From assembly GCF_932294415.1 (NCBI RefSeq), contig NC_065536.1, positions 15,869,974 through 15,933,973 of the forward strand: a stretch of 64,000 nucleotides of DNA, in the 5' to 3' direction. Made by a program: the position numbers and the translations under genes. Source of the stretch: Quercus robur. Taxonomy: Eukaryota > Streptophyta > Magnoliopsida > Fagales > Fagaceae. This document shows, piece by piece, positions 8,166 through 63,455 of the stretch; position 1 is the stretch's first letter; every line of letters begins with the position of its first letter. The notes beneath the pieces are model-generated. The model did no database searches, had not been told where the DNA came from, and saw nothing but the letters and a program-made list of their open reading frames with translations.

Positions 8166-8198
8166 GAGCTAGGGCATCAGCTAGTGCAACAGTCGAGC

Positions 8199-14277: not shown

Positions 14278-14322
<45 letters not shown>

Positions 14323-18000: not shown

Positions 18001-18005
18001 ACTGT

Positions 18006-38074: not shown

Positions 38075-39817
38075 TCACCAGTTGTTTAGTGGCCAAGGTG
38101 ATGAGTTCAAGTATCCATACCCCGTTGCCGCTTCTATGCTCTCAATGCTTTCAGCATAGGCACTTTTCTTTGGCCCTTTCGAGACTGGTGCTGTGTATGA
38201 GGAATAAAGTGGAGGGGCAATAGTGGCATCATTACTTAGTGGTGCAACCCATGTTGAACGACTAGGCATAACCCAGCCTCCATAATAGCCACTGTAGTCA
38301 TCATGATTCTCATTCTGAACGATATTTCCATTCACCTTGACCCAGTCGTTGAAATCATCAGCCTTTTGTGGGCGATGATGATCTGGAGTACTCCCAGGAA
38401 TTTGCCATTTATCATCAGCATATGCATATTCTTTCACTGGCTCATATCCATGATCTTTCACAGACACAACCTTTGGTGGGGAGCTGTATCTAGATTCATT
38501 GCTTTTCATTGGCCCAACCATTGGTGGGGAGCTATATCTGGATCCATGGTCTTTCGCTAGCTTGGCCTTTGGTAGGGAGCTATTTTGCAATCCATAGTCT
38601 TTCACTGGCTCGAACTTTGGTGGAGAGCTATTTCTATATCGATTGTCATTCATAGGCCCAACCTTCGGTGGGGAGCTTCTTCTAGATCCATAGTCTTTTC
38701 CTAACTTGGCCTTTGGTGGAGAGCAATATTTGGATCCATTGTCAAGCACAGGTCCCACCTTTGGTAGGGACAAACTATTTCTGGATCCATAGTGGGGAGC
38801 TTGTGGTAGGGAGCTAAATCTGGATTGGTTGTCATTTATAGGCCCGACCTTTGGTGGGGAACTAAATTTGGATCGATTGTCATTCATAGGCCAGCCCATT
38901 GGTGGAGAGCTATGTTTGGATCCATTGAGATACACAGGCTCGACCTTTGGTGGGGAGTTATTTCTGAATCCATAGTCTTTCACTAACTTGGGCTTTGGTG
39001 GAGAGCTACGTCTTAGGCCATTGTCTTTAATAGGCCATGCCGTTGATGGAGAGCTATGTCTGAACCCATTAATAGGCCATGCCTTAGGTGGGGAATTATT
39101 TTTGAACCAATTGTCATTCACGGGATCAGCCCTTGTTGGGGAGCTATGTCTGAATCCATTCTCATTCATAAGCCCGACCTTTGGTGGGGAGCTATTTCTG
39201 GATCCATAGTCTTTCCCTAGCTTGGCTTTTGGTGGGAAGCTATTTCTGGATCCATTGTCTTTCATAATCTCAACCTTTGGTGGGGAGCTACGTCTAGATC
39301 CGTTGTCATTCACTGGTCCAAACTTTGGTGGAGAGCTATTTCTAGATCCATATTCTTTCACTAATTTGGCATTTAGAGGAAAGCTATGGCTAGATCCACT
39401 ATCTATCACAGGCATGGCCTTAGGTGGGGAGCTATATTTCGATCCATAATCTTTTCCTAGCTCAACCTTTGGTGGGGAACTATTTCTTGATCCATAGTCT
39501 TTCACAAGCTGAACCTTTGGTGGGGAGCTATTTTTGTATCTATCATCTTTCATTGGCTTGGCTTTTAGGGGGAAATTAAGCCCATAATCATAGTCTTTCT
39601 CTGGCTCAGCCTTTGGTGGAGAACTGTATCTGTAAAAGCTCTGTGCGTCGTGGCTGGGAGTGCGCAGAATGCTTGGCGCCTTCCTTCCCATAACATCAGT
39701 GATATCAGGCCCGTAACCATCATCGGAGGCATAGCTTGGTTTCCTCCATTCATCAGCACGCGGTGCAACTCCATTGTTGGTGGAGTAGCCATTAAACGCA
39801 AAACCATGCCTGTCCAT
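38075..39817 (-). CDS. Tandem repeat-protein paralog 1 (16-residue SSPPK-type units), unknown family
   Basis: The ATG at 39817 (MDRHGFAFNGYS) is preferred to the GTG one codon upstream, because both paralogs start with ATG at this spot. Product ~580 residues. The N-terminal ~50 residues carry ADEWRKPSYASDD, conserved in all paralogs. Then come ~25 imperfect 16-residue units of the pattern (N/R/H)SSPPK-x-x-(P/L)-V-K/N-D-Y/N-G-S-R. A non-repetitive C-terminal part holds PVKEYAYADDKW, WVMPSRSTWVAP and a degenerate AYAESIESIEAATGYGYL. The protein is basic, rich in Ser/Pro/Lys/Tyr/Gly, has no signal peptide or membrane segment, and is very likely disordered. Compared with the paralogs it ends early (see 37990-38074). 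Low-complexity DNA keeps a 48-base periodicity without frameshifts, which argues for selection on the frame. The plus-strand frames opposite are shadows. Confidence 0.78.
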   Translation of the reverse strand: MDRHGFAFNGYSTNNGVAPRADEWRKPSYASDDGYGPDITDVMGRKAPSILRTPSHDAQSFYRYSSPPKAEPEKDYDYGLNFPLKAKPMKDDRYKNSSPPKVQLVKDYGSRNSSPPKVELGKDYGSKYSSPPKAMPVIDSGSSHSFPLNAKLVKEYGSRNSSPPKFGPVNDNGSRRSSPPKVEIMKDNGSRNSFPPKAKLGKDYGSRNSSPPKVGLMNENGFRHSSPTRADPVNDNWFKNNSPPKAWPINGFRHSSPSTAWPIKDNGLRRSSPPKPKLVKDYGFRNNSPPKVEPVYLNGSKHSSPPMGWPMNDNRSKFSSPPKVGPINDNQSRFSSLPQAPHYGSRNSLSLPKVGPVLDNGSKYCSPPKAKLGKDYGSRRSSPPKVGPMNDNRYRNSSPPKFEPVKDYGLQNSSLPKAKLAKDHGSRYSSPPMVGPMKSNESRYSSPPKVVSVKDHGYEPVKEYAYADDKWQIPGSTPDHHRPQKADDFNDWVKVNGNIVQNENHDDYSGYYGGWVMPSRSTWVAPLSNDATIAPPLYSSYTAPVSKGPKKSAYAESIESIEAATGYGYLNSSPWPLNNW

Positions 39818-41081
39818 CACTTTTCTTTGTGTGAAAACTTCAATTACTCAAAGAATGGGACTTCTTTCTTAGTTTCTAAACGAGTCATGAATCATCCTTA
39901 AAATAGGAAAATAATATTCCATTTCACTCACTTGTCATGATATGGTACGATATTCAACCATATTGCATGCGCAAGCGTGTATTACTTTTTCCCATGCGCT
40001 TTCATATTCCCTTTACATGAGATGAAGAATCATATTCTACGTAACTCTCCTTGAATGAGAACCTTTTTTCCACATGCACTTGCTAGTTTTGCACTCTCTG
40101 TAGAATGTATTATTAAATCGCGTCCAACCAGAGAATCACTTTTAACTCCATGAAAACTGACGTGATTGTTCCTTTCTGTTTTGGGCACAAGGCAGGAACC
40201 AGCATATTAGTCCACTGTAGATGAGGATAAGAGTTGGGACATGGAGTTAATATATACAATAACCCTGAAAATAAAAATAATAGAGAACTTATATAAATTC
40301 AGTTTTACCTTAAATTACTTAGACTGAATGTTACTCTTTAGCAACAATGCCTGATTTAATTGCAACAAGTACTTTGTATCGAAATTACCCAAGAACATGT
40401 AACTCATGTTTTGAAACTCTGTGTTGCCTATTTTCCTGCCATGTCACTACATTTTTTGAGTAACTTGGCTTCAAATTCTTTTCTCCAAGCGATACATCAA
40501 GGATCAGTTCTACATTTTGTGTACTACACCCGGATCCTGCCACTACAAAAGTATTCTTAAGAATCGAATTTTTATAAAGTTCCCTCCCTTCAATGTAAAT
40601 CGTTTACATCCTCGTCATGTAGATATCAACCATATGTAGCAAATGGTTGTAGAATATTCTGAAATTGGCTTACTATTCTCTATTTTAAAGTTTATTACCA
40701 GTAGTCATGGATCAGAGTTAAACAGCATAATTAAATTTCAGAAATTCCAAAATTCTTTATGCCATTCTTCTAGGCTAAGATTTTTGGGAAAGAGCATTGA
40801 TTCGACCGTCTACTAGGATGGATGAACGGTAGAATCCGCTCCATTATTACTTAAAATGAATAGAGTCTATTTATGGTTATGATTTTATGTTTTAGAGCTA
40901 ATAATGTACAAAGTGCACCTCATGTAAAGGCAATGGTTATATTTTTTATTTTGAAATATTTAATCTAAGCATGAAATAGATGATTTTTATATAATGAGGA
41001 GTGCTATTACTATCACATTTAGAAATGGAATGATATAGATTGTTTCAAGAGTCATTTTTCACTATTTTGGCCATGGCCAGA

Positions 41082-41123
<42 letters not shown>

Positions 41124-41637
41124 GTGGATGGTATTCACATGAAGTTAAGATTTTTACAAATTATATTGGTTTATTATATCTTTGTCATAACTAGATTAGT
41201 ATAATTATAAGAAAAATATATTTTTAAACTGATTTTTTTTTTTGATGAAATTTTTTAAAACAGATTTGTTGAATGAGTATCACATTTTGTTTGTTTTCTT
41301 CTAAAACGAGGACGGGTGACATAAAATAGATAGTTACATTTGCACCATTTATGCAAATCATATCCTGAACGGATTTTTATCTTTTTGTGTATCATATATT
41401 ATATTGTGTATGGTATAATAAATGGACACTTTATGCAAAAATATATAAATGCGTAAAGTTGTTACAAACTTAGGATATATTGAATTAATAATTAATTTTA
41501 TCAGTTGCGTCTCCTCATGTACAAAGTACTTAGAGGTTTAGAGGAGAAAAAATTCGAGTTGCGGAATTAGTCGTATACTTTAATTATCTCTAAAAAAAAC
41601 AAATCTAATTAAAATGTCAACTTAAAATCCATATATA
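39818..41637 (-). promoter_or_regulatory. Upstream region of paralog 1, duplicated in the other units
   Basis: A TATA-like TATTTTAA on the minus strand (plus 39898-39905) stands ~80 bases before the ATG, matching TATTTAAGG at the same place in the other two genes. Homology with the unit 2 upstream region continues for over 1.5 kb (e.g. 40460-40600 with 57930-58060, 40650-40840 with 58110-58290, 41115-41340 with 58885-59070). A (TA)n run lies at 41085-41118. No other gene is seen. Confidence 0.7.
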
Positions 41638-43471
41638 TCTAAAAAAAAAATCTGAAAGCTGAAATTTAGTATTTATTGTTGCTACGCTCTTATTAAGTCA
41701 CATCAGTAACCACACCATTATTTCTATTAATAAAAAAATTATTTTATTTTCATTCTTTTTCTATTAGTGTTTTAAAAATTTCTACTTCAGCTTCCATAAC
41801 ACCCATGACTCCCTTTCTCCACTGTTTTAAAAATCCCATATAACTTCTTTAATGTTTGAGACTCTCCATCTCCCCATTTCTTACCTCTTCCTCTCCTCAT
41901 TGAATCCAACCATTTCATACCTGTTAAGTTGCCACTATCCCTATAAAATCAAAGAGATCATGTATAAATAGTTAGATGTTCTCTATCTCTCTTAACTTGA
42001 AGAGGAATAGTTTTGGATTTAACTCTTGCAAAAAGCACAAGACCAGTGGTACGAGAACAATGTTTAAGATTATTAGCTCTCTGCTTCCTCACTCTAAAAC
42101 CCAACTTTATATGTCCAATCACATTACACCACCTAGCTAATAATATCCTACTTTCATTTCAATTTGACACACTCTATCTCTCGCTGAGGCTTAGTTTTTA
42201 TTTGATGGTGATCTATGGTTTTGAGGTTTTTTGCCCACAAAGGTAAACTCTTTTTTCTTAGTCGGTGCTTTTTTGGTGGTTTTGTGAGGTTTTTTCGTAT
42301 GAGTTTTTTGAATTAGGTTTATTTATATGGTATGTGTATGCACATTTCCTTCAAAGTTGTGCTCTTTGTTGTGATTTTGTGGTTGTGTTCTCTTTTTGCA
42401 CCATGTAATATTTGAAATTTTAAGGTTTTGTTTTGTGGGTATTTGAACTTTGACCTCTACATGAGGTATTGTAAATGGGTGCCCTTCAAAAATTTCAAGA
42501 GCTATTTTTTTTTATATTTTGTTTTGTTGGACTGCTTTGGTTTTGGGGGTTTAGGTTCATAATTTCCTCTAATTTTCATAGATTATTCATTAAAGTTTTG
42601 GTCTTTCTTGCAATTGGGTTCTTTGTTATTGATTTATATTGCTCAATTTTGTTCAAATAATTGAATTTTGAATTCCTTAAACTAGGTTTATATGCAAATC
42701 AAGTTTCGTTAGTTATTCAAAAAAAAAAAAAAAAAAAATTCAGCTTTTGCTAGTTGTTAATCTTGGATTACTTTTGAAAAAGAAAAAAAAAAAAAAAGAT
42801 TACTTAGTAACAATGCATTATAGATAGTGTGTAAAATTAGAATATGTTTTGCTTCCTCACTCTAAGTTTCTTTGTATTCATGAGTATGTAATGTGATTGG
42901 AATGAAAGTCCAATGCATATGAAATGTTTTGCCTTAAGCCTAATGTGTTATAGGCTTCCTCTCTGAACTATTATAGGCTTTCACACATTAACAATCTATA
43001 TGTCCAGTGCGTTATAGAAACTTAGGTTTAGAAATTCTTGGTGTATTATTTCCAACAATTTAGGTGTGTTCTTTTTGTAAACACACGGGCTTACTACTCT
43101 TTTGGGAAATTATAGCAGCATTTTTATTTTCATTATCCATATCATATTTGAATAAACCATCTAAATATTTTGTGAATCTAATGCATTATAATAATGATAA
43201 TCAAAGTCTTTTCTAAAACGGTTCATTAAATATAAAAGTTATCAAATATTATAAGAATGACTCTTTGTTTGCCTAGGTAATAGGTAATAATTCAAACGTA
43301 TGATTATATGAGAATATTATCTATTGGTTTAATTAAATTAAATGACAATCAACTGCCTCCACCATTATATCAGAAAAAAAAAAAAAAACAAACGTTTAAG
43401 GTTTTAATTTTTTATTATTAATTATTATCAATAAATCACAATAATCATTCAAATAATAGTTACATTCTTAT

Positions 43472-44078
43472 TGTAGGGACACGTTCCAAAATGAACCATA
43501 ACGGTTGTTGGGTCAGGATGTGAATGGGCCCATACAATATCATTTGTAGAGAGTGGGATTGAAAGGCTAAGTCGTGTTTACCCGGCGGTGGTTTTTGTTA
43601 AGATATTTATGCATGGTTCAGGTGTATTCGCCTCTGAAGCCCTTTTCTTCTTTCAGTGGGACTGGAGGCCCCTCCTTTAGGTTACATATTTTTTCTTTTA
43701 TACTCGCATGCGTTCAATTTCCTTCGTCCACGTGTAGGGTCGACCTTTTCAAGACTGATGCTTGTCCCATCAGTCCCAGACCTAAGTCGTGAGAGTTGTT
43801 GATAAAGTTAATGGATAAGGCTTTGTTAGGCGCAGAGATATGCATGGGGAAGATGGCAAAGGAAGCCCTTCTTAGATATTTTAGATTTCCCTTCAAGCAC
43901 GTCCCTTTACCTTTCTGCCCTTGTTCTTGGGTCAGCCGAGGACTGCACTGTCCTCGGCTGCTTCTCCGGGCCAATTGGGCCATACTATTCTTGAACTCTG
44001 GCCATGACCTTTTTCGGCTTAGGCCTCTGGACCCTTCATCAGCAAGTGGGCCTGGCCCGTCAATTACTGGACCCCACA
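43472..44078 (-). repeat. LTR of the non-autonomous element (3' LTR in element orientation)
   Basis: In element orientation it begins TGTGGGGTCC and ends CCCTACA. A TATA box TATAAAAG (minus strand, plus 43697-43704) probably drives element transcription. Confidence 0.9.
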
Positions 44079-44415
44079 ATAGCCCCTCAAAACCCTGCTG
44101 TCCGGCCTCTTGGTTGGAGAGGGGGGTTTTGGTAATTCCGAGCCTTTATTACGGCTCATTTAATTCGACCCTTCCCTGGCGTTGGCAGTTATCCGAATGC
44201 CCAGGAAACGCTCCTATCTACGAGATATCCTTTTTGATTTAGCCTTTATCCGTTCTGTCCGTTTGGCTACCCGAAGTAGGTCTTTAATGTTTTTCCTTCA
44301 CGAGAACTCTCAAATTCAATGGCTACTAATAACGTGGGGGAACGGAACAGTCGCATTCTTGCTGGCAGATTTCCTTAAAGATCAGAACACGTTTAATGCC
44401 ATCCTCTTCGTCCTT

Positions 44416-44423
44416 TATATAAA
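44416..44423 (+). promoter_or_regulatory. TATA box opposite to the element's LTR promoter
   Basis: TATATAAAGAGGG on the plus strand, i.e. antisense to this minus-oriented element and ~340 bases inside the LTR. The Tat-type element has TATATAAG ~260 bases inside its 3' LTR in the same relative orientation. Confidence 0.5.
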
Positions 44424-44563
44424 GAGGGTGGACATGAGTTGTTTCTTTCATATGTGAATCATTTAATCCCCCAGAAAACTGAAATCCTTAGATTCCTCCC
44501 AGCATTCACATTTACCCTCTGCTTATACATTGACTCGTAATACGTCCGCCACAGTCATAGGTA

Positions 44564-45073
44564 ATGAAGAAACTTTCTCCCTTCCAAAAACACCGTGTTC
44601 TGACCAAGCTCGAGATGGCTCGGTCGGGGCAAGGATGGCGGAGACTCAAGATTTTTCCCGCCTACCTTTTAGCCAAAATCCGAAGCAGGAACTCGTCACG
44701 TCGCACCTTCGACGTGACTGAGCCGAGGACACACAGCATCATCACCACCCGCTCTCTCATGAGCATATCTAATGTGGTGCCGGTGTGCAAGGAGTCAGGA
44801 CTGGGGCAGGGTTTCAATGCCCCTGTTTCTTCCTCTCTTCGTTCACTGGCGCCACCTTTTACTTTTCTTTCTTCTTCTTTCCCCCACCAGATCCATCCTG
44901 GTGCTTTTCCTTCTCCCTCTTTTGCTTCTTTTACTTTCTTTTCATTGCTTCCCTCTTCTTCTCCTCCTTCTCTTACTCATGTCCTCCATCTTCCTCATTC
45001 ATCTCCTCCATCTTCTGCTCATGTCCTCCATCTTCTTCTTCCTCGGCATTCTTCGGTGACAAGAGCTTGCTGA
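44564..45073 (+). CDS. Possible opposite-strand ORF of the non-autonomous element
   Basis: A 169-codon frame starts ~140 bases after the TATA box. The first ~60 residues are basic (KLSPFQKHRVL, KIRSRNSSRR) and the rest is Ser/Pro/Phe/Leu low complexity. A related basic stretch recurs at 46273-46530 (KKEISQPRKRRAL, VKIRSRF), so the segment is duplicated inside the element. I see no similarity to the 744-residue gene of the autonomous element. Whether it is translated is doubtful. Confidence 0.3.
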   Translation: MKKLSPFQKHRVLTKLEMARSGQGWRRLKIFPAYLLAKIRSRNSSRRTFDVTEPRTHSIITTRSLMSISNVVPVCKESGLGQGFNAPVSSSLRSLAPPFTFLSSSFPHQIHPGAFPSPSFASFTFFSLLPSSSPPSLTHVLHLPHSSPPSSAHVLHLLLPRHSSVTRAC

Positions 45074-45659
45074 AGTGCTTCCATGTGTTCCAATTCTTCT
45101 TCCTTCTCCTTTATCTTTTTCTAAAAAGGTTCGTCTCCTGATACGAGTAGCATTGAGGCAGATATTGGAAAAGCTTTGAAGGCGAGTTTAAAAAGGCAGC
45201 TGATTATTTACTTATCTATATCGCGGATGCTAGTGTTACTTTGACAGTTCATTTTTTGTATAGGCTTGTTCAAGCCCTTCTTTGTACGTTGTAACAGTTT
45301 TCCATATTAATAAAAGTTGATATTCATTTATTTCGTATGTTATGTTTTTATGCTTTTACAAGTTTACCAACGCTGCTCGGCATCGTAATATAGCATTTGA
45401 ATCAATAGTCACTAAGGCTAAAATGTTTGTTAATAGAAAAAGGTGTCACCATAACTTTAATAAAATTATTTAACATAGCAAAGCCGACCAGTGAGGAACA
45501 AAACTCACCTTGGAATTAGCCAGGATGAGGACCAAGTGTTCGATATATTGTAGGAAATAACTATCCGAGGACATTTCACTCGCCAAATGAACAATTTTCT
45601 TAGGTTAGTGAAAGCTGGGTCGTTTCGCCGCCTTTTTAACACACTGGCTTTAACCTTTT

Positions 45660-45840
45660 ACAGTATTTGACCGAGAACCTTCCCCATTCGAGTAGTTGAT
45701 TTCCCAAAAAGCTTGAGTCCGAGGACTTCGTAACGCTTGGGTTCCGTCTAAGACTTAGATTTGTTCTCATTACTTGGTTTCCCCATAGGCTTGAGTCCGA
45801 GGACCATGCAAGCCCTAGGTTCTGTCCAAGACTTTTTGAG
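45660..45840 (-). repeat. Two diverged copies of the ~80-base unit
   Basis: GCTTGAGTCCGAGGACTTCG… and GCTTGAGTCCGAGGACCATG… with GGTTC(C/T)GTC(T/C)AAGAC are older relatives of the array at 47.2 kb. Confidence 0.7.
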
Positions 45841-46272
45841 TTCAATTTCTCCCTTTCCTCAGGTATTTCACGAGGTGCCGAGCAGAAAGTTGTCCTCGGC
45901 AACGGTTATTCCTTGGTGTGGGCCATTGCCCTTGGGCCCCCATGCAGAACAGTCCTGGGCCGCGAATTTACTTGGCCCTCAACTTAAAGGGTATTTACGT
46001 AGTTTTTGGTTACGTGGTACTTTTTGGCATCCCGATGTTCGAGTTGCACCTTCCAGAGACTCCTTTAATCTCCTGGTTGCAGGTGGCGTAGGAGATTGAG
46101 CCTAAGCCATCTTGTCTGTAGCGTCCCTTGGGACGCTGCGTGAATTAAATGCCACCACCTTTATCTCTTTAAATAAATGAGAGAGAGTAAATTACTTCAT
46201 CTTCGCACCTATTCTTTAGTTTTCTACCAAATCACAGCTCCTATACTCAGTGCTGTCCTCCCTTAGCACAAT

Positions 46273-46530
46273 ATGTCTGAGGCGAGGGTAGGGAAGAAGG
46301 AAATTTCTCAGCCACGGAAGCGCCGTGCCCTTATGAGACTAAAAATGGTGAGGTATGAGCACAGGAAGCATAAGTTCAAGAGAGTGCTCCATTTCAATCG
46401 AGGGGAAAGGACGTCTCTCCCTCTTTTAGTCAAAATCCGAAGCAGGTTCTGTTCATGCCAGAACTTTGGTGTGTCAGAAGAAAGATTCTCCGCCATCAGC
46501 GCCTCTGCCTTGTGGCGGGCGAATATTTAG
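46273..46530 (+). CDS. Possible short basic ORF, second copy
   Basis: 85 codons from an ATG (MSEARVGKKEISQPRKRR), rich in Lys/Arg, resembling the start of the frame at 44564 (shared VKIRSR/AKIRSR and spacing). It lies ~100 bases after a TTTAAATAAA stretch. It may be a relic of a duplicated opposite-strand exon; evidence for translation is weak. Confidence 0.25.
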   Translation: MSEARVGKKEISQPRKRRALMRLKMVRYEHRKHKFKRVLHFNRGERTSLPLLVKIRSRFCSCQNFGVSEERFSAISASALWRANI

Positions 46531-47208
46531 AGAAAGCCCCTCAACTTCCAACTCCCTGCACCTTTCCTTCAGCGGTGTTAGGCTCAAGTTGGGTCTCTTT
46601 TGCTGTTTGAGTTGTGGGCAAGTGAAAGTATATTGAGGAAGAACAAGGTCTTGGAGCTGTAGCCAACCTCTCCTCTGATCTACTTCCTCGGCTTTTACTT
46701 TTTTCTCTTGTATCTTCCTTTCTTTTTGGTTATGTAGTGAGCTTTGACACAAACTGATTCTAGCTTTTCATTGCACACTGTACTATCTCTTTGCTTTAGT
46801 AAAAAATGGCGATTTCTTTACTTGTTTTGAATGCTGTTCTTTTGATAAAACTACTTGGTGAGTTGGGGTGCTCCATGTGTGTGTTTCTCTTCGGCAGTAT
46901 TTAAAGCAAGAACTCTTGAAACACAATCCAACTAGTTCTAATCTATCAACACTATCAGGCAGAATAATAATAACTCATAGTAAGTTAAATTTAGGAAACT
47001 AACCGAGATAACGGTTGAATGTTCCGTAGTAAGCACGAGAATGTTGTATGAGGACGACAAATTCTAAATAATTCGTCCGAGGGAGTGACTGAGCATTGCA
47101 TGACTTCGGTTATGCTTTTGGAAACACGTTACTCCATTCCATACTGGTCTCTTTAGTGTTGAGGATCCGAGGGCAAACTAAAGAATCCATGTAACACAGT
47201 TTCCCTTT

Positions 47209-48485
47209 TAAGTAGTTGGTTTCCCCGGAGGCTTGGGTCCGAGGACCGTACAAGGCCTTGGTTCTGTCCAAAACTTGTATCATCTTTTTAAGTAGTTGGT
47301 TTCCCCATAGGCTTGGGTCCGAGGACCATACAAGGCCTTGGTTCTGTCCAAAACTTGTATCATCTTTTTAAGTAGTTGGTTTCCCCAGAGGCTTGGGTCC
47401 GAGGACCATACAAGGCCTTGGTTCTGTCCAAAACTTGTATTCTTCTTCTTAAGTAGGTGGTTTCCCCATAGGCTTGGGTCCGAGGACCATACAAGGCCTT
47501 GGTTCTGTCCAAAACTTGTATTCTTCTTCTTAAGTAGTTGGTTTCCCCAGAGGCTTGGGTCCGAGGACCATACAAGGCCTTGGTTCTGTCCAAAACTTGT
47601 ATTCTTCTTTTTAAGTAGTTGGTTTCCCCAGAGGCTTGGGTCCGAGGACCATACAAGGCCTTGGTTCTGTCCAAAACTTGTATCATCTTTTTAAGTAGTT
47701 GGTTTCCCCAGAGGCTTGGGTTCGAGGACCATACAAGGCCTTGGTTCTGTCCAAAACTTGTATTCTTCTTCTTAAGTAGTTGGTTTCCCCAGAGGCTTGG
47801 GTCCGAGGACCATACAAGGCCTTGATTCTGTCCAAAACTTGTATTCTTCTTTTTAAGTAGTTGGTTTCCCCAGAGGCTTGGGTCCGAGGACCATACAAGG
47901 CCTTGGTTCTGTCCAAAACTTGTATCATCTTTTTAAGTAGTTGGTTTCCCCAGAGGCTTGGGTCCGAGGACCATACAAGGCCTTGGTTCTGTCCAAAACT
48001 TGTATCATCTTTTTAAGTAGTTGGTTCCCAGAGGCTTGGGTCCGAGGACCATACAAGGCCTTGGTTCTGTCCAAAACTTGTATTCTTCTTCTTAAGTAGT
48101 TGGTTTCCCCAGAGGCTTGGGTCCGAGGACCATACAAGGCCTTGGTTCTGTCCAAAACTTGTATCATCTTTTTAAGTAGTTGGTTTCCCCAGAGGCTTGG
48201 GTCCGAGGACCATACAAGGCCTTGGTTCTGTCCAAAACTTGTATCATCTTTTTAAGTAGTTGGTTTCCCCAGAGGCTTGGGTCTGAGGACCATACAAGGC
48301 CTTGGTTCTGTCCAAAACTTGTATTCTTCTTCTTAAGTAGTTGGTTTCCCCAGAGGCTTGGGTCCGAGGACCATACAAGGCCTTGGTTCTGTCCAAAACT
48401 TGTATTCTTCTTTTTAAGTAGTTGGTTTCCCCAGAGGCTTGGGTCCGAGGACCGTGCAAGGCCTTGGTTCTGTCCAAAACTTGTG
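47209..48485 (-). repeat. ~80-base tandem array, 16 units
   Basis: Near-identical units of GTTTCCCC(A)GAGGCTTGGG, TCCGAGGACCATACAAGGCC and TTGGTTCTGTCCAAAACTTG, followed by a variable TATCATCTTTTT or TATTCTTCTTCTT tail. The open frames at 47338-48593 on both strands are translations of this repeat, not genes. It is homologous in inverse orientation to 13620-14010, which is expected because the elements lie in opposite orientation. Confidence 0.95.
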
Positions 48486-48719
48486 TTCTCTTTTTCGTTT
48501 ATCCGCTTCTTAAAGGTCAGCTCCTCGAATAAAGCGGAGGAAGCTATCTTGGTGTTTGGAGCCCCTAGACTTGCCATGCCACTGGCATTATGAGGCGTAG
48601 CCCCTGGTGGGAACTTGTGTCGGAACAACGACAAGGTGTCGCCGGTCATAAAGGCGTTCTCGTAGACCCCTGTTCAACATAAACTCAACTCCATCGCCGT
48701 TCGCGTTCACGCGTAAGCC

Positions 48720-48737
48720 TCCCCATAGACGGCGCCA
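48720..48737 (-). other. Primer-binding site of the non-autonomous element
   Basis: The minus strand reads TGGCGCCGTCTATGGGGA two bases inside the 5' LTR. It differs by one base from the site of the autonomous element at 8148. Confidence 0.85.
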
Positions 48738-48739
48738 AT

Positions 48740-49347
48740 TGTAGGGACACGTTCCAAAATGAACCATAACGGTTGTTGGGTCAGGATGTGAATGGGCCCA
48801 TACAATATCATTTGTAGAGAGTGGGATCGAAAGGCTAAGTCGTGTTTACCCGGCGGTGGTTTTTGTTAAGATATTTATGCATGGTTCAGGTGTATTCGCC
48901 TCTGAAGCCCTTTTCTTCTTTCAGTGGGACTGGAGGCCCCTCCTTTAGGTTACATATTTTTTCTTTTATACTCGCATGCGTTCAATTTCCTTTGTCCACG
49001 TGTAGGGTCGACCTTTTCAAGACTGATGCTTGTCCCATCAGTCCCAGACCTAAGTCGTGAGAGTTGTTGATAAAGTTAATGGATAAGGCTCTGTTAGGCG
49101 CAGAGATATGCATGGGGAAGATGGCAAAGGAAGCCCTTCTTAGATATTTTAGATTTCCCTTCAAGCACGTCCCTTTACCTTTCTGCCCTTGTTCTTGGGT
49201 CAGCCGAGGACTGCACTGTCCTCGGCTGCTTCTCCGGGCCAATTGGGCCATACTATTCTTGAACTCTGGCCATGAACTTTTTCGGCTTAGGCCTCTGGAC
49301 CCTTCATCAGCAAGTGGGCCTGGCCCGTCAATTTATTGGACCCCACA
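48740..49347 (-). repeat. LTR of the non-autonomous element (5' LTR in element orientation)
   Basis: A near copy of 43472-44078, followed by the target duplication CTTAT. Confidence 0.9.
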
Positions 49348-49809
49348 CTTATTATATATGAAAATATATAGTCCACAAGTATGAGATTAATATTCAACAA
49401 CATAAAAATTTACACCATGATTTGTCTTCTTTTCATTTTTCTACTTTTATTATTATTAATTTTATTATGTCAATTTGAATTCATTGTTCAATTTTTGTAA
49501 AATCCATGTTTACTCTACACTATATTTAATTATGAATTTTCTAGGATATGCTATATATTTTGATGGCTGATTCAAATGATTTCTTGACAAAATTTTGTTT
49601 GAATAATTTGATAAGTTGTGTTATATTTCTTTGATTTTTTTTTTTAGTAACGGTAATTTATTAATTTAAGCAGTAAAAATTTTCTTTTGACAATTGACAA
49701 AATGATCCTTAAAGAACTATCATTATAAATTTTTTACAATCAAATAAGTTTATCCACAAATGATCGATCATTAATAATATTCCCACACATTGCGTAGGTC
49801 TGTGGCTAG

Positions 49810-50050
49810 TTATCAAATGGGCAATACTAAAAAGTTATGTTTCAGTTGTATTGTTATTGTATGCATCACATATATTGTACAACGTTGACAATCATGCATA
49901 AAAAAATTATATATATATAAAATAAATAAATAAATAACTCAATTAGTAAGTGGTTTATCACAAGATCAATCCAACTTATTCTCATTCAAGCAAACACTTT
50001 AACAATTACAACCGAAATGAGTTGATAATCCTAAATAATCACACATACCA

Positions 50051-50108
<58 letters not shown>

Positions 50109-50534: not shown

Positions 50535-50671
50535 TTTTAAAATATCTAGCACAATTTCTCTATTTTGAAACAATTAAACATCGTATCTTTGTTTTAAAAC
50601 TTGATTTTCTAAAAATTGAATTTCTCGTAGAATTCTATTTTATGATTATTGAGTTATAGGTAAGTTTTTAC

Positions 50672-51298: not shown

Positions 51299-51361
<63 letters not shown>

Positions 51362-51678: not shown

Positions 51679-52093
51679 ATTTTTATCACATTGGAGGAGC
51701 ACCAGTAGTTCTTCCCAATTTTAAAAATCTAGGTGGAACTCGATTTTACTGAAATCAAGTTCTAGGAAAAAAACTTACCTAAAAATTGATAATCATAAAA
51801 TCGAGTTATATTGAAACTCGATTTTTAAAAAATCAAGTTAAAAAAAAGGACACAGTGCCTAATAGTTTTAAAACAGAAATAATTTGCTAAATATTTAAAA
51901 AAAATAAAGACAAGCCCATTTCCCCCAAAACCTGTCCATTCTATTACGGCCATATTTGTTGTGGTTGGGAGAGAAGATTAGGACCCATTGGATTATCATT
52001 TTTACAAATAAAAAACTGTTTAAAAATCCCAATAATAGAATATAGTGTAAAAATAATTTTTTTTTTTAAATTATGAAACATTTTCTCTAATAA
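51679..52093. other. AT-rich spacer, nothing recognised
   Basis: Two GAACTCGATTTT-like repeats near 51730-51830; no coding signal. Confidence 0.5.
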
Positions 52094-53708: not shown

Positions 53709-53748
<40 letters not shown>

Positions 53749-55096: not shown

Positions 55097-55403
55097 TTGT
55101 TATTAGAAACATGGTCCCAAAAGGTTTTCTTTTTAGGGTAAAGAAAATTAATGAAAGCATCATATTTATAAGTTTTCTCTTTATTGTTAGACACAACCAA
55201 ACATGCCTATCTTACAATAGACAATTCATTACAAGTTCACTACCTAGGTTACTTTTGATTAGAGAATCTATACACACACATATATAACGGGTAAAAATAC
55301 TTGTGTGCATAAAAAAATAAAAATAAAAATATTTCATACCATGAAAGTAGCAAGTCTATTGCACATGCATATTTTACAAGAGCTTATTTTAATATTCGAG
55401 GTA
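55097..55403. other. 3' flank of paralog 2
   Basis: From ~55240 it matches 61945-62090, the 3' flank of paralog 3 (GGCTACTTTTGATTAGA, TTGTGTGCAT, AAGTCTATTGC, TTTTACAAGAG). No gene. Confidence 0.6.
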
Positions 55404-55415
55404 ATACAACTTACT

Positions 55416-55597
55416 TTTTTTTTTTTTTGATATTGAGAGCTACCCACCCTTGGTGGGTGGGGGTGCCCTTTAACCCAAGAACGAGGGGCAAGCTTGTGAC
55501 AGACCAACAGCCACCTCTCCCACCTAGTCGGTTCCATCATACGTTCAACAACTTTAATGCCCCAACTTGGTTACAAGCTTACGTTACTAAGCTCGGC
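55416..55597 (-). mobile_element. Short retroposon (SINE-like) with 12-base target duplication
   Basis: 182 bases between ATACAACTTACT at 55404-55415 and 55598-55609. The left end is a T run, so on the minus strand the insert ends in poly(A). Paralogous unit 3 has the uninterrupted site (GCAATACAACTTAATTATAAAC at ~62087). The body contains the near-palindrome CCCACCCTTGGTGGGTGGG. I could not place A and B boxes convincingly, so it is called SINE-like only from tail and duplication. Confidence 0.8.
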
Positions 55598-55721
55598 ATA
55601 CAACTTACTTATAAAGCCACATAAAAGTAACTGGGTAATAATATAAGGGAGAAAGGACTAATAGAATAGACCAATATCTCCAAACAAACCTCCCAGCTAG
55701 AAGCATGGACTTGAGGCTCAA

Positions 55722-56594
55722 CTATTTTATTAGAACACCACCGTACTTCCTAGCAGCTTCTCTACTATCAATGGTTTGTGGCTGAGATATTAAGTTGCCA
55801 TACCGCCTTGCAGCTTCCCTATTATCAATGATTTCTGTATAGGTATCTCTTTTTGGCACTGGTTTTTGGATCGCTGGTACTCTGAACCGAGGAAAATTGC
55901 TATTCTGCTTGTCTGATTGAGCTTGATTATATCCATGGCCTTTCGCTGGCTCTGACTTATATCCGTAATCTCTCAGTGGCTCTGGCTTATATTCATAGTC
56001 TTTGATTGGCTCCACCTTATATGCATACTCTTTCACAGGCTCAGGCTTATATTCATAGTCCTTGACTGGCTCGGCCTTGTATCCATAGTTTTTCATCGGC
56101 TCGACCTTTGCTGGGGAGCTATTTTTGTATCCATGGTCTTTGACTGGCTCAACTGTTGGTGGGGAACTATGTTTGTATCTATGGTCTTTCATCGACTCAA
56201 CCTCGTACCCGTAATCATTCACCAGTTCATCTTTTGTTTGAGCACCATGTTTGTATCCATAGTCTTTAGTTTGCTCAAGCTTTGGTAGGGAGCTATGTCT
56301 CTGTCCATAGTCTTTCGGCGGCATGACTTTTGGTGGGGAGCTATGTCTGTATTCTATGACCAATGGTGCACAGACCTCCTCAACAGCTGTCTCAACTTCT
56401 GCAACATACCTCTGTGCACAGTTGTTGGAAGTTTCCAAAATGATTGGCATCTTCCTTACCTCTGCAACGACAATGACAGGCTGGCTCAAATGATCAGATT
56501 CAGATGCATAGCTTGGTTTGCTCCATTCATCAGAGCGACGTGGAAAACCACTCTTGGTGGCGTTGCCTCCATAAGCATAACCATACTTAGCCAT
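55722..56594 (-). CDS. Tandem repeat-protein paralog 2, unknown family
   Basis: The ATG at 56594 (MAKYGYAYGG) is preferred, being at the conserved start; the open frame extends upstream only through a T/A run. Product ~290 residues. It begins with the conserved N-terminus (SDEWSKPSYASESD) and a non-repetitive stretch (QPVIVVAEVRKMPIILE). Then come about six 16-residue units (HSSPPKVMPPKDYGQR-like), which pass into ~10-residue units YKxEPVKDYE. The C-terminus has two motifs, YTEIIDNREAARRYGN and IDSREAARKYGG. The shift between unit types inside one protein shows that the 16-mer equals the 10-mer with a six-residue (N)SSPPK insert. Basic, Tyr/Lys/Pro/Glu-rich, no signal peptide. TATA-like TATTTAA on the minus strand (plus 56683-56689). 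Function unknown. Confidence 0.8.
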   Translation of the reverse strand: MAKYGYAYGGNATKSGFPRRSDEWSKPSYASESDHLSQPVIVVAEVRKMPIILETSNNCAQRYVAEVETAVEEVCAPLVIEYRHSSPPKVMPPKDYGQRHSSLPKLEQTKDYGYKHGAQTKDELVNDYGYEVESMKDHRYKHSSPPTVEPVKDHGYKNSSPAKVEPMKNYGYKAEPVKDYEYKPEPVKEYAYKVEPIKDYEYKPEPLRDYGYKSEPAKGHGYNQAQSDKQNSNFPRFRVPAIQKPVPKRDTYTEIIDNREAARRYGNLISQPQTIDSREAARKYGGVLIK

Positions 56595-57061
56595 CACTAA
56601 CTTTTGAGTGAGTTTTTTTTTTTTTTTACTCAAAGAACTCTTGGACTTCTTCCTCAGTTTCTATAGTTATCGTAACTTATCCTTAAATACAGAGATAATA
56701 TTCCTATCTGCATGATAATTGATATGGTACAAGATTCAACTATACTGCGTTTGGCAAGAGCGTATTCACTGCTTTTCTCATCCACTTTCATCGGATTCCC
56801 TTCAAGCTGTTCATTAATGACCAAACAGTTGAAGAATCATATTCTAGCCTATCCATGGATTATGATCTCCATTAGATTAATTCTCTAGAATGAGATCTTG
56901 TTTTCTTCAGATAACACTTGGTCCTGTCCTCTCTGCGGATTGCCTCATGAGTCATATCTACCTTAAGAGAATATATAAAAGTGAGAATATCTTTGACTCC
57001 ATGAAAGCTAACGTGACCTTCCTTCATGTTTCAGTACAATGTTGATGAGATTAGAGACTTT

Positions 57062-57240
57062 GGATCGGTTTGGATATAACTTATTTAGCAAAAAACTGAA
57101 AATTTAAAAAAAAAATAATAATAAAATTTACTGTTCACATATGGGATTGTTAATTGGCTGGTTGTACTGTTCATGATCATGAACAGCGCTAAAAGTAAAA
57201 AAACAAAAACAAAACAAAACACTGAACGCGAAACATATAC
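57062..57240. mobile_element. MITE-like element, copy 2
   Basis: Inverse relative of 2754-2970: GGTTTGGATATAACTTATTTAGC at the left, CTGTTCA and GAACAGCGC inside, AACGCGAAACATATACTCG at the right. Confidence 0.55.
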
Positions 57241-57594
57241 TCGAGGTTTACAATCAACACATACAGTAGACATAATACACAAATTAGTTGAGTTTGGACC
57301 CCGCAAACCAGAATTATAGCTGTATCCTATTCAGTTCTGCTAGCACATATTACTCAGAAGAAAAGCCACTCTTTAGAAACACTGCCTGATTGACTGCAAA
57401 AAGCGCTTCCCGGCCACACGTACCGAAATTGCCCAAGAACATATTACTCTATGTTACTAACTTCATGATCTTGTATTCGTTAATCTTATAATTCTGAATA
57501 GAATTTCTAGTCATCTACAAACCCCATTTCCAGCTAGCACATTTTCTATATTATTTTTCTTTTAGTGATATAAAATTTGAATCACAATAATCAC

Positions 57595-57641
<47 letters not shown>

Positions 57642-58499
57642 CCCTAGCTTCATCTTCACATGCTTTTGGTAGTTTCCCATAGCTGGAATTGGTAACCAAG
57701 CTGCCTATTACATCCCGCCATGCATGTCATTGCATATTTTGAGTCACTTGATTTAACAATCTACTCAAATAAAAACACAGCCTGTGAATATACTTTTATT
57801 GAGTAGTTTCATCTTCTTTACATCAGCTTCTAATTTTCTGGAAGAATGATGAATGATAATTAGTCATTTGAAGCCTGCAATAACGTGATTGACGCCCAGT
57901 TATATAACAAAAATGTTGGTATTACTTGGCTTCGTATACTTTTTCTCTAAGCGATCCATCAAGGATCAATTCTACATTGTGTACGTACTACACCTATATT
58001 TTGCCACTACAAAAGCATTCTGAAGAATCAAATTCATTTAAAGTTCCCTCGATCTCTTCATGGTAAAACATAAAGTTTCCAACCACGTAGCACTAACGCG
58101 CGGTTGTAGCACATTCTGAAACTAGCTTATTATTCTCTATTTTCAAGTGTATTTCTAGTGGATCTGAGTTAAACAGCATAATTAAGCTTTATAAATTTCC
58201 AAAATTCTTTGATGTCTTTCTTCTGGGATAAGATTGTTGGGAAAGGACACTGATTCAACCTTGTCTACTAGGATGAGGGGTAGAAACGTCTCCATTTCAC
58301 TTCAAATAAACAAAACCCATTTCATAGTTAAAATTTTATTTTTGGATCTAACAACATGTGAAGTGTATGTTATTTAGGGGCATTGGTTACATTTTTAGAT
58401 TTTTATAATATTTAACTTGAAACATTAATAAATGAGAGATAGGCTATCATTTTCAAATTTAAAAAGGGATTAATATAAATGTTTTAAGAAGTCTTTCTT

Positions 58500-58825
58500 T
58501 ATATTTTAATGAAATTTTGTAACCAACTTGGTTGTAGTTTAAGGTTACAATTTCACTCAATATCTTTTTATTGAAAGTGAATTTTGACAAATTTAATAAA
58601 TTACATTTTCTTCTTATATACTTCACCTAGCAAAATTTCCACAAGATCAAAGATAAATAGATATGTCATCAATCAAATGTTTAAATTTCAAGTTTTTGTA
58701 GTCTAAATTTATACATAAAAATAAGTTTATATATTATACAGTAAATAATATCTTATTGGCACGAAATTTAACATGTGTGTTGAAAACATAAAGAGTAGCT
58801 AATCAAGTTTGTAGCCAAACTTTCT
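58500..58825. mobile_element. MITE family A, copy 2
   Basis: Related to 28337-28729 throughout. It starts AATTTTGTAACCAACTTGG and ends AAGTTTGTAGCCAAACTTTC. Unit 1 has GTCATTTTTCACTATTTTGG at the same place (~41050), where unit 2 has GTCTTTCTT, the element, then TTCACTTTTCTGG, so unit 1 is the empty site. Confidence 0.75.
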
Positions 58826-59100
58826 TCTTCTTCTTTTTCACTTTTCTGGCTATGGATTGATAATTTTTTTTTATTATTATTTTTTTTATTTAGAAGTGGA
58901 TGGTATTTACATGAAGTTATAATTTTTATAAATGTTGTTTATCATTTTCGTCATAACTAGCTAGATTAATATAAGGAGAATATCTTTTTAACAGATTTTT
59001 TTGAATGAAATGTAGATTTTGTTTGTTTTCTTCTAAATTGAGGATGAGGAACATAAAGTAGGCAATCATGCCTATACTAACACTCTGTTTGTTTTGTCAT

Positions 59101-59499
59101 TTGTTTAGTAGCGTTCTTGAAAATGAGATAGAATAGTTTCAATGGTTTTCGTATTACCTCTTAAACTTCTTTATTTAGTGTGATATGAGATAAATTTGTT
59201 TTTCGAAAAATTTTAACATAAAACAATCTCTTAAAAATAAGTTGTATTTTTAATAGGCTTTTCTGTTGAGTAAAATATTTTTCCCTTAAAATATTTTTTT
59301 TCTAATACTACCAAACACAAGAAAATTTAAAATCATCTTCATGAAAAAATTTCCATCAAAACAAACAGAGTATAGGTTATTTGCTGGTATGTGTGATTGA
59401 ACAATAAATTCAATAATTTCATTATGACAATTACATAGGGGTCGAATAAAATTTTGATTCCCCACTTTTATAAAAATCATAATATAGTATACACATTTT
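59101..59499. other. AT-rich spacer, nothing recognised
   Basis: No frame or clear repeat beyond a generic AT-rich stretch. Confidence 0.5.
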
Positions 59500-61196
59500 T
59501 TAAAGCCTTAGCCTTAGGCGGTCATGGGTGGCTTTGTTCCTAAGGCTTCTCCTCCACCTCCTTTAGTGGCTTTTGAGGCTGAGGTTGATGATGATGATAC
59601 TTCCAAGGATGGAGATGCTAGCTCTTTCGGTACAGATGAGATGTCTACTTGACATTCGTACCCTTTGTCACTCCTGACAAAAAATGGAGAGTAGTTTTGT
59701 ATATGAAAGTAGTCATTCTTAGGGAGAGAATTAGTATAAGACCATTTTGTTAGGAGGAGTGTTGATATCTGAGAGATGTAGTGAGGATTATATGTATATC
59801 TTTTCTTTTCTCTACTTTAGATACATTTATTCTTGTACATGGGGTCTTGTGACCATTATTGACATACATTATACTTATTTTCTTTAAATGTTGATGTATG
59901 TTTTTTTCACCTACCCTTACATGTGTTGTTTCTTTTCACTCTTTATGCATATGCTTCTTATTACGTGTATGCAATATATTATTTCTGTTTCACACAAAGA
60001 TACCTTGATAAGTTTTGTTTAAAGTGTTTCAGAAATACAAGTTGTCAAAGTCTACTTGCCATAAACTCTCTTCTTTCAAAATTTTTCAAGAGTTTATGTT
60101 AAGATGGATTTTATTGTGTTCAACAAGTGAATATGAGGTGAGTGATTTATGACTTCTCTCATATATTCATTTGTTTGTTATGGTTTTGTCACAGATTACT
60201 AAAGGGGGAGACTGTTAGGACATATGTGATTCACTTGTTAAGAACATATGTCACTATTTTATGTAATTGACTAATTCTTTAACAAAATGCACTTTACTTG
60301 TATTTGAGTAGATCTATAATGTGTTTAATACTTCAAAAAATTGTGTTTCAAGATCAAGTGTTGAAGCCATACAGGTCTGTCCAAGATTCAAACTGAAAAG
60401 TGCAAGTTTATTAAAGCTTGATAGCTAGTATCTATCGTGCTTGAAGAGCTGTTCCAACCCCGTGGCTCGATAGCTGCTCAACAAATGTCTATCTGTCGAG
60501 GTTTAAGAAAAACAGATTTTCAGTTCTGTTTTGACTCTAATTTGTGATTATATGTTTGGACTTTCTTTTCTCACAACCCTAAACATATAAAATGATTATT
60601 TTAAGGGCCGTCAAAGGTGACACAAGTTGCACAAGTGTTGAGCAAAATTTGTTCAAGCAAATTGTGACCGGAGACAGAATTTACCCTAGTTTATTGTTCT
60701 TGTGTAAAAGTTCCTGTGTTTGTGTACCGTAGAGTTTTGTGACCAAGCATTTTCTTGATCTTCATCGTCTAGATGAACTGAAGAATTTTGTAGCCAACAA
60801 CCTTCTCTAATTGGTGATTGAAGTAGCGTACTGGGATCTACACAATTGATTAGTCATGTACTGGGAGTCATGCATCAAAAGGAGAGTTTGTCACTACAAA
60901 ACCAGTCCAATTGGGTATTAGGATAAGAGTTCAACTGTAAGTTGGCGTAAGGTACTAAGATTCCTTTACTTGTAACCACTTATTTTGATAATAATGGATT
61001 CTCGGGAGTGGTGACCTTAAAATCATCTGGTGGGGTTTTTGCCGTATTGGTTTTCCTCATTCGTAAACAAATCACTATGTCAATTTAATTTCCGTTGCAA
61101 TTAGTTTAATTGGTGATTTGTTTGTGCTACCACGCGCTTTGCATGTTAATTTGATTAATTAATAAACTTGGCTAATTAATCAATTAATTAATCACA
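59500..61196 (+). mobile_element. 3' part of an LTR retrotransposon: coding end, polypurine tract and LTR
   Basis: 59519-59652 reads GGFVPKASPPPPLVAFEAEV followed by a run of Asp and DGDASSF..DEMST-stop, like the acidic end of a plant retrotransposon protein. A non-coding stretch ends in ACTAAAGGGGGAGAC, an evident polypurine tract, followed directly by TGTTAGGACATATG (LTR from 60211). The LTR appears to end AATTAATCACA near 61196. GGTACTAAGATTCC and TCTCGGGAGTGGTGACC are of the type common in long Ty1/copia LTRs. The 5' part is missing and no second LTR lies in the window. Confidence 0.6.
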
Positions 61197-61402
61197 AGGA
61201 GTCAATTCGTTTTTGGCCTATCATATATAAATAATGATTAGTTAGTACTAGTGAAATAAATAAAATATCAAATATCCTTATTATTAGATGGTCTATTATA
61301 GGATTAATAAAAATCATGACCATTCAAGTCAAATAAATCAAACAAATGACCAAAAAAATAAGAAATATATCCTAAATAATCACAAAAATATGCTTGTGAA
61401 TT

Positions 61403-61438
<36 letters not shown>

Positions 61439-62213
61439 CCCTTCTTGTTAATCATATATCTTATTGTGTTTCATATGATAATTGAAAATTTTATAAGAAA
61501 AATATTAACACATTAATTTTATTTATTTATTTTATATAACTAAGTTGTTACAAACTTAGGATATATTTTTAATAAATTATTTTATCAAAACCAAATTAAA
61601 AAATCTAACCTTTCTCAAATTTTTTTTTTTAAATTTAACTAAATATGTCAACTAGAAATGTGTTAATAATATCAACAATCAAATTGGTAACACTAAAAAG
61701 TTATGTTTTAGAAATATAGTTGTTGTACGCGTAACATATCATATGAATGATGTTGATTACTTTTAAAATAAAAATAAAAAATAAACAGTAAACTGATAGG
61801 ATTTTAATATAGAGACAAATCACAAACTCTTTGCAAAAGCCATAAGAGCTTTTAAAGGATAACGAGATAAGTTATACTATATACAATATCCTTTATAGAA
61901 TAATTATTATTTTTCTTTTTTCTTTTTTCTTTCTGAGAAACTCCGTACAAAGGCTACTTTTGATTAGAACACATACATACAAACACATATAACGCTTAAC
62001 AATATTTGTGTGCATGAAAATAATTCATGGATGAAAGCATTAAGTCTATTGCTCATGCATTTTACAAGAGTTTATTTTATTATTAGAGGCAATACAACTT
62101 AATTATAAACTCACATATATAATAGTAATTGCGTAAATATAAGGGAAAATAGACTGATGGAACGGACCAGTATCTCAAAACAAACGTCCCAGCTAGAAGC
62201 ATTGACTTGAGGC
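61197..62213. other. Spacer and 3' flank of paralog 3
   Basis: Contains a poly-T run (61405-61438), a block at 61540-61760 matching 41450-41625 and 49810-49890 of unit 1, and from ~61945 the 3' flank shared with paralog 2. No gene. Confidence 0.55.
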
Positions 62214-63455
62214 TTAACCAATTATTGCACCACCATACTTCCTAACAGCCTCTCTGCTATCAATGGTTTTGGTGTAGTTGTCTTCTGCTGGTGGTAGATA
62301 TTTTAAGTTGTTATACCGCCTTGCAGCCTCCCTACTATCAATGGTTTCTGTGTAGGCATCTTTTTTTGGCACTGTTTTTGACATTGGTGGTACTGAGAAC
62401 CGAGGAGTAGGACCAGAGACAGATAAAGGCTTCAATGCTTCTTTCGAATTCTCCACGGCTGTGCCAAGATCAGGTGTAGATTTGCTAAGAGTGGCATCAT
62501 GATGACTTGGTGGTGGTGTAGACCACGTAGCACGATTTGGCCTAACCCAGCCTCCATTATTGATCATTGTTGGTTCCATAGCATTTCCATTCCTGGGAAG
62601 ATTTTCAGGCGGCTTGACAGAGCGATCGCTACTGGGCTCCTTAGGAATGTTTGTACTCGCATTGAGTGAGTAATTATTGTATTGTCGTCCATCTTGAAAC
62701 CTCCTTCTTCGACCATTTTCAGTGTAATCCTCAACTTTTTGCGGGCGATCATGAATTGGACTCGAAGGCCTATGCCACTTATCATTCGCGTATTTATAAT
62801 CGTTCATTGGCTCGACTTGACCATATTCCTTCATTGGCTCAGCTTTATAGCCGTAGTCTCTTTTTGGCTCAGTCTTATAGCCGTAGTCTTTGATTGGCTC
62901 AGCCTTATTTTCGTAGTCTTTCGTTGGGTCGACCTTGTATCCACTGTCTTTCACAGGCGGCTCAGCCGTGTATCCATAGTCTCTCATAGGCTCGGGCTTG
63001 TATCCGTAGCCTTTGACCGGCTCAGTCTTGTATTTATAGTCTTTCACGGGCTCGCCCTTGTATCCAGAGTCTTTCATTGGCTCAGCCTTTGTTGGGAAGC
63101 TATTTTTGTATCCATAGTCCTTCCATGGCTCAACCTTGTAACCATAGTCTTTCACTGGCTCATCCATTGGTGGGGAGCAATGTTTGTATCCATGGTCGTT
63201 CCCAACTTTTGGTATTATCGCCGAAGGTCCATGGTACTCAATAACTGCCTCAACTTTTGTAACATAGCCTTGTGCACTGTAAAAGGGATTTGCCAAAATG
63301 ATTGTCAATTTCCTTCCCTCTGCATCGGCGATGACAGGCTGGCACAAATATTGATCAGTGTCAGAGGCATAGCTTGTTTTGCTCCATTCATCAGAACTAG
63401 GTGGAACACCACTGTAGGTGGAGTAGCCTCTATAAGCATAACCAGATCTGGCCAT
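62214..63455 (-). CDS. Tandem repeat-protein paralog 3 (10-residue YGYKxEPxKD units), unknown family
   Basis: The ATG at 63455 (MARSGYAYRGYS) is used; the extra codon upstream is GTG. Product 413 residues. It has the conserved N-terminus (SSDEWSKTSYASDTD), then QPVIADAEGRKLTIIL and a Tyr/Val stretch. From ~residue 95 to 225 lie ~13 units of D-Y-G-Y-K-x-E-P-x-K, only two or three of which carry the six-residue (N/H)(S/C)(S/F)P insert. A middle region (KWHRPSSPIHDRPQKVEDY, GGWVRPNRATWSTPPPSHHD) is shared with paralog 1 (VMPSRSTWVAP). The C-terminus has AYTETIDSREAARRYNN and YTKTIDSREAVRKYGGAIIG. This is the most complete member. Likely disordered and cytosolic or nuclear, as no targeting signal is seen. 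Plus-strand frames (e.g. 62682-63461) are shadows. Function unknown. Confidence 0.82.
   Translation of the reverse strand: MARSGYAYRGYSTYSGVPPSSDEWSKTSYASDTDQYLCQPVIADAEGRKLTIILANPFYSAQGYVTKVEAVIEYHGPSAIIPKVGNDHGYKHCSPPMDEPVKDYGYKVEPWKDYGYKNSFPTKAEPMKDSGYKGEPVKDYKYKTEPVKGYGYKPEPMRDYGYTAEPPVKDSGYKVDPTKDYENKAEPIKDYGYKTEPKRDYGYKAEPMKEYGQVEPMNDYKYANDKWHRPSSPIHDRPQKVEDYTENGRRRRFQDGRQYNNYSLNASTNIPKEPSSDRSVKPPENLPRNGNAMEPTMINNGGWVRPNRATWSTPPPSHHDATLSKSTPDLGTAVENSKEALKPLSVSGPTPRFSVPPMSKTVPKKDAYTETIDSREAARRYNNLKYLPPAEDNYTKTIDSREAVRKYGGAIIG

Follow-up and report, generated by a model that had tools for sequence, protein, structure and literature searches.

The 64,000-nucleotide stretch of the Quercus robur genome considered here (contig NC_065536.1, positions 15,869,974 to 15,933,973; hereafter the window) contains part of a tandem array of genes whose proteins are built from short repeats rich in tyrosine, lysine, proline and serine. 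Coordinates are those of the window, and the same scale is continued to its right. Gene A (38075–39817, minus strand) encodes 580 amino acids between a likely ATG at 39817 and a TGA stop; gene B (55722–56594, minus) encodes 290 amino acids (likely ATG at 56594); and gene C (62214–63455, minus) encodes 413 amino acids (likely ATG at 63455). These ATG starts replace the GTG and TTG starts of a program-made list of open reading frames. A preliminary description of the window had recorded an array of three genes. The three frames are found where it placed them, but the array continues to the right with gene D (75317–76615, minus, 432 amino acids) and gene E (93663–94901, minus, 412 amino acids), both intact, and with a degraded copy F (approximately 65358–65811, minus), giving at least five intact genes and one decayed one. 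Genes A to E apparently consist of a single exon each, judging from their frames and from the frame-breaking gaps in the DNA upstream. All six copies lie on the minus strand inside 57 kb of a 785.7-Mb genome of 42 contigs. Whole-genome searches with five queries (A, C, E, the C-terminal tail and a consensus of the N-termini) revealed no convincing locus beyond the six, a count that is a lower bound because only the best candidates were scored; the C-terminal tail retrieved C, D, E and B, and missed A and F. A match to A on contig C1 (E-value 0.003, 27% identity, 2 stops) was set aside as chance.

The proteins share an architecture that the preliminary description had reported and that is seen in the translations: an N-terminus (DEWxKxSYAS in A, B and C), a repeat core, a W-V-x-P-x-R-x-T-W segment that A and C carry and B does not, and a C-terminal motif, ESIESIEAA or IDSREAARRYGG. 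The repeat core of A (38417–39634, minus) has about 23 units of 16 residues with the consensus KD[YN]GSRNSSPPKVxxV, rather than the 25 reported earlier (Tandem Repeats Finder gives 23.3 copies; of 22 parsed segments, 16 are exactly 16 residues long). It is followed by a tail (38078–38416, minus) with GGWVMPSRSTW and ESIESIEAA, the latter a diverged version of the C-terminal motif. The core of B (55929–56354, minus) mixes 16- and 10-residue units. The core of C (62787–63212, minus) consists of decapeptides KDYGYKxEPV, about 12 in number (8 exactly 10 residues) where 13 had been counted before. The motif IDSREAARRYGG is doubled in B, C and D, and the tail of C holds a motif IDSREAxRxY twice.

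Parsing at the KDYG-like core yields units of 10 residues (KDYGYKxEPV) and of 16 residues (KDYGYK/SR-NSSPPK-VxxV). B holds both lengths, and the longer unit is the decapeptide plus a six-residue NSSPPK-like insert. C and D consist mostly of decapeptides with two 16-residue units each, A mostly of 16-residue units, and E of decapeptides preceded by one leading SSPPK; some segments are irregular in length. The two units, which had been reported as different, are thus the same one apart from the insert. The decapeptide runs Lys-Asp-Tyr-Gly-Tyr-Lys, a variable residue, Glu-Pro, and a mostly aliphatic last position. In E, each of the 11 units compared keeps Y5, E8 and P9, with varying codons (TAT/TAC, GAG/GAA and CCA/CCT). 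The core of A contains 16 sites of the form S/T-P-x-K/R, the motif type of the proline-directed kinases CDK (cyclin-dependent kinase) and MAPK (mitogen-activated protein kinase), against 1.7 expected from composition (at most 7 in 1000 shuffles). B has two such sites, E one, C and D none.

All five proteins fall on the disordered side of a charge-hydropathy plot, with a net charge per residue of 0.007 to 0.052 and a grand average of hydropathy of −1.06 to −1.16; tyrosine makes up 8.8–10.2% of B to E and 5.7% of A. By Kyte-Doolittle hydropathy, the sole measure applied, none of the five has a hydrophobic N-terminus (best 11-residue window starting within the first 30 residues −0.45 to −0.62), and A to E contain no membrane-suited stretch. 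Tandem short repeats and a disorder-type composition, as far as composition tells, place A to E among the intrinsically disordered tandem-repeat proteins, a kind of protein and not a homology family.

The frames are open well beyond chance, as had been claimed for this highly repetitive DNA. With 300 dinucleotide shuffles per coding sequence (CDS), no stop-free stretch exceeds 188 amino acids for A, 139 for B or 182 for C, and each of the frames A to E is longer than in all 300 of its own shuffles; the excess excludes a chance origin. The gap pattern also follows the frame. Among the six pairs of B to E, 12 of 12 gaps in the N-terminal coding DNA are multiples of three, as against 9 of 49 in the 400 nucleotides upstream (the pairs share gaps, which are therefore not independent events). 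C and D are 94.4% identical over the CDS with two gaps (27 and 30 nucleotides, 2 of 2 multiples of three), and 89–91% identical in the flanking DNA with 22 gaps, two of them multiples of three. Aligned as DNA over the whole CDS, the ten pairs of A to E show 141 gaps, 117 of which are multiples of three, the remainder being due to the ambiguous alignment of repeats.

The array grew by duplication of genomic DNA. In a self-comparison, C and D lie in one duplicated block (61232–65035 and 74293–78139), and B and F, together with the DNA on the upstream side of B, pair up as well (56179–56842 with 65362–66055; 57244–59517 with 71627–73881). The order B-C-F-D and the paired blocks therefore indicate a tandem duplication in which a block of B and C was copied to F and D. 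The upstream DNA is related in all five genes, and the downstream DNA is clearly related in B to E (84–87% where alignable, B-D 80%, C-D 94%), so that the copying took place at the DNA level and not through retrocopies; for the downstream DNA of A (44–56% to the others) copying is not clear. The proximal 400 or so nucleotides upstream are 81–83% identical among B to E, with C-D at 96%, and 66–70% identical between B to E and A. A 13-nucleotide promoter block, AATATGATTCTTC, is invariant in A to E (minus strand, 40024–40036 for A, 56831–56843 for B and 63683–63695 for C). The promoters had been called conserved, and they are indeed alike among B to E, less so towards A; but in the five B to E pairs without C-D the 400 nucleotides upstream (78–82% in these pairs, 78–96% over all six) are no closer than the N-terminal coding DNA (79–87% and 79–92% respectively). 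In F, a 4-nucleotide insertion follows the N-terminal part, stops come after it, and the 3' part is gone. A Copia-type element with long terminal repeats (LTRs) at 66055–71464 (LTRs 86% alike, 5-bp duplication TCATA, TG...CA ends, Copia-type gag) is inserted within the block AATATGATTCTTC of F. Copy F shows what becomes of a member of this family once constraint is lost.

Constraint is visible in the repeat unit. Comparing units within a gene, the ratio of nonsynonymous to synonymous rates (omega) is 0.16 in E, 0.17 in B, 0.21 in C, 0.27 in D and 0.58 in A. The tests took segments of exact length only (16 residues: 16 of 22 in A; 10 residues: 11 of 18 in E, 8 of 16 in C, 10 of 16 in D and 5 of 13 in B), and odd-length, double or non-repeat segments were left out. 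Values as low are reached, per 400 neutral star-tree simulations at kappa 1.7 and 3.0 respectively, in 0 and 0 for E, 0 and 0 for C, 1 and 10 for D, 1 and 4 for B, and 16 and 48 for A; the simulations have no array turnover, and the counts are indications, not exact probabilities. Since the parsing itself favours conserved residues at positions 1–4, the test was repeated without them, and the constraint on E, C and D stands (0–3 of 400 simulations as low). We note that counting by the Nei-Gojobori method (NG86) over whole repeat cores is unreliable because the units do not correspond one to one; the unit-level tests are used instead.

The explanation that we favour, with somewhat more belief than doubt, is that these genes form a single-locus, tandemly expanded plant family of non-secreted, disordered proteins whose working part would be a multivalent array of the KDYGYK-xEPV unit. 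Such a protein would be a soluble, charge-balanced chain in which the repeated Tyr, Lys and Glu-Pro units offer many weak binding sites, as a scaffold, a protective or a condensate-forming chain; the number of units would set its valency, and the C-terminal IDSREAARRYGG is predicted to be a short docking motif. The structural or condensate-like role proposed earlier is compatible with the composition. In A, the SSPPK-type insert present in most units creates the 16 S/T-P-x-K/R sites and would make the protein a putative multisite target of proline-directed kinases of CDK/MAPK type, with phosphorylation tuning the chain; from its motifs, A is a likely target of such kinases.

Several results weigh against this explanation. 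In a codon model, omega of the N-terminus is 0.98 and not different from 1 (61 codons), and for N-terminus and tail combined it is 0.79 (p = 0.081), so that 1 is not rejected; the tail by itself gives 0.71 (p = 0.032, 199 codons). To enter these alignments, N-terminal columns had to be filled in all five rows and tail columns in at least three. Between C and D, the NG86 values are 0.62 for the repeats and 1.00 for the tail, and the absence of stops (2.9 expected under neutral substitution, none seen, P = 0.049) is marginal. Without positions 1–4 the constraint on the unit is lost in B (22 of 399 and 50 of 400 simulations as low) and weak in A (10 and 32 of 400). Because the unit of A is so weakly constrained, the case for its phosphorylation is one of motif occurrence. 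The disorder of A to E is predicted from composition. The flanks, in short, drift nearly freely, as the three codon-model values indicate. A value near 1 in the non-repeat parts, combined with a lack of transcripts, had been named beforehand as refuting the preliminary reading, and such a value is what the N-terminus gives; the tail lies lower, the frames are kept and the repeats are constrained.

These observations feed a first rival, a relaxed or dying family of redundant tandem copies that are open only through youth and have no current function. The near-neutral flanks and the C-D values fit it, and one of the six copies, F, is already degraded. Nevertheless, we regard it as unlikely. A has diverged far (47% identity to C, with its promoter at 66–70%), yet its 580 codons remain open; indels mostly keep the frame; the CDS of C and D are more alike than their flanks; and the decapeptides of E, C and D are constrained. 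Frames kept open together with repeats under constraint speak against dead genes. The repeat, and not its flanks, seems to bear the amino-acid constraint, as demonstrated in E, C and D for the ten-residue unit. The earlier idea of a fast-evolving family is right for the flanks. Diversifying selection, also suggested, finds no footing: the N-terminus of C versus D is the only comparison clearly above 1 (omega 3.7, bootstrap 1.24–14.26 from 178 usable replicates of 200), and with 1.5 synonymous differences and a Fisher p of 0.26 we do not claim positive selection there.

A second rival retains the disordered chain and changes its task to stress protection in the manner of dehydrins and late embryogenesis abundant (LEA) proteins, by hydration or by shielding of membranes and proteins, with no membership in those families. 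We consider it improbable. Dehydrins carry a YG-containing element, and, like the proteins described here, dehydrins (PF00257) are disordered, hydrophilic plant proteins with modular repeats, here Lys-rich. Two papers (PMC5415607, PMC8961592) give the K-segment as the defining dehydrin motif. Against consensus segments, A to E match the K-segment in at most 4 of 15 positions and the Y-segment in at most 3 of 6, so that neither segment is present, and Pfam yields no LEA or dehydrin match up to an E-value of 10; A to E were accordingly rejected as dehydrins. Less probable still are precursors cut into many short signal or cyclic peptides, with the repeat as the product. A conserved unit in a drifting remainder would suit them, but the N-terminus is not signal-peptide-like by hydropathy, no BURP or other precursor domain is found among the Pfam matches, and the units come in two lengths (10 and 16) and irregular ones. 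Repetitive cell-wall proteins of the proline-rich (PRP) or extensin type share the richness in Pro, Lys, Tyr and Ser, but with no hydrophobic N-terminal stretch in any of the five proteins and no Pfam PRP or extensin match we give them hardly any credence.

Returning to the multivalent array, a bolder version is that KDYGYKxEPV is an undescribed plant module forming a sticker-type chain, with selection acting on the unit and its number and the remainder of the protein left to drift, and that gain of the six-residue SSPPK-type cassette made A tunable by kinases. We offer this tentatively and consider it doubtful as a whole. If true, nature would have supplied at this locus a set of versions of a single disordered scaffold that differ in valency and in phospho-sites. 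It is common to regard disordered repeats as filler that drifts quickly next to a conserved domain; this family seems to show the opposite, with the repeat as the constrained part. A tandem set that varies in unit number and type, with related promoters, would make the effects of valency and phospho-sites testable within one family.

Further elements surround the genes. Between A and B lies an LTR element (43472–49347) with a 5-bp duplication (CTTAT) and end repeats of 610 bp that agree at 99%. It contains a 16-copy minisatellite of 81 bp (47206–48495) and no open frame above 190 amino acids, and is probably a young non-autonomous element. A 79-bp minisatellite at 13618–14014 is related to the 81-bp one (approximately 68–70%, opposite orientation). 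It lies in an LTR retroelement on the left (7455–18004; end repeats of 695 bp, 98.6% alike; plus-strand gag and reverse transcriptase), which we read as Ty3/Gypsy-like and which has long opposite-strand frames at 14327–17086, between pol and the 3' LTR. The window also holds an 829-codon open pentatricopeptide repeat (PPR-DYW) frame and a second copy, approximately 88% identical, with short frames only (3256–5742 and 19865–22555). Such genes and transposons are in keeping with a plant genome.

The family had been called unrecognised, and this holds as far as Pfam, NCBIfam and PDB reach, none of which gives a credible match. In Pfam, no family exceeds its cut-off for A to E except PF25296 (Decapeptide repeat region, cut-off 45 bits), with E at 63.4 bits; D (39.7), C (30.5) and B (24.7) stay below and A does not match. 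In a genome search with PF25296, E alone passes (48.7 bits over the frame), and of 14 control genomes six match, none above the cut-off. In PDB, E (1.2e-29) and C (8.6e-17) match the repeat of bacterial IcmE/DotG, and in NCBIfam A, B and C give only weak IcmE/Amuc_1100 matches. The likeness to PF25296 and IcmE is that G-[YF] comes back every ten residues, one to a unit; in the alignment the IcmE units are rich in Ala, Leu and Phe, and only the G-Y/F and K-D spacing recurs. Column-scrambled E repeats that keep K1, G4 and Y5 score 78.7 and 49.1 bits on PF25296 (2 of 2 pass; the real units by themselves score 71.3), and the match disappears in one full shuffle and in all three free column permutations of the E repeats. 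Because scrambles keeping only these three residues pass, the match is a period resonance, and kinship of E with PF25296 or IcmE is rejected; the profile appears to be built on IcmE-like repeats. One scramble also exceeds the cut-off of the PMG family (42.1 against 29). A period-ten profile can thus score above its curated cut-off with a plant protein to which it is unrelated, and also with scrambles of that protein, and matches of repetitive proteins need such a control. In viral and prokaryote collections, 41 and 5 stretches matched two N-terminal peptide patterns, but all failed in tblastn and no relative is confirmed. No description of the unit was found in Pfam or in searches of the literature, which included a text search of papers for the string YGYKPEP; in other plants, members of the family may well carry the label uncharacterised protein.

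Two known systems remain close in kind. PLDRP1 (At5g39570) is likewise a disordered, non-secreted, Tyr/Lys-rich plant repeat protein; its repeat and N-terminus are not known to resemble those described here. For A only, we propose a likeness to the tail of neurofilament-H, in which KSP repeats spread numerous proline-directed serine sites along an extended disordered segment. A has no rod domain and belongs to another kingdom, and no kinship of sequence is claimed; the likeness lies in the way of working.

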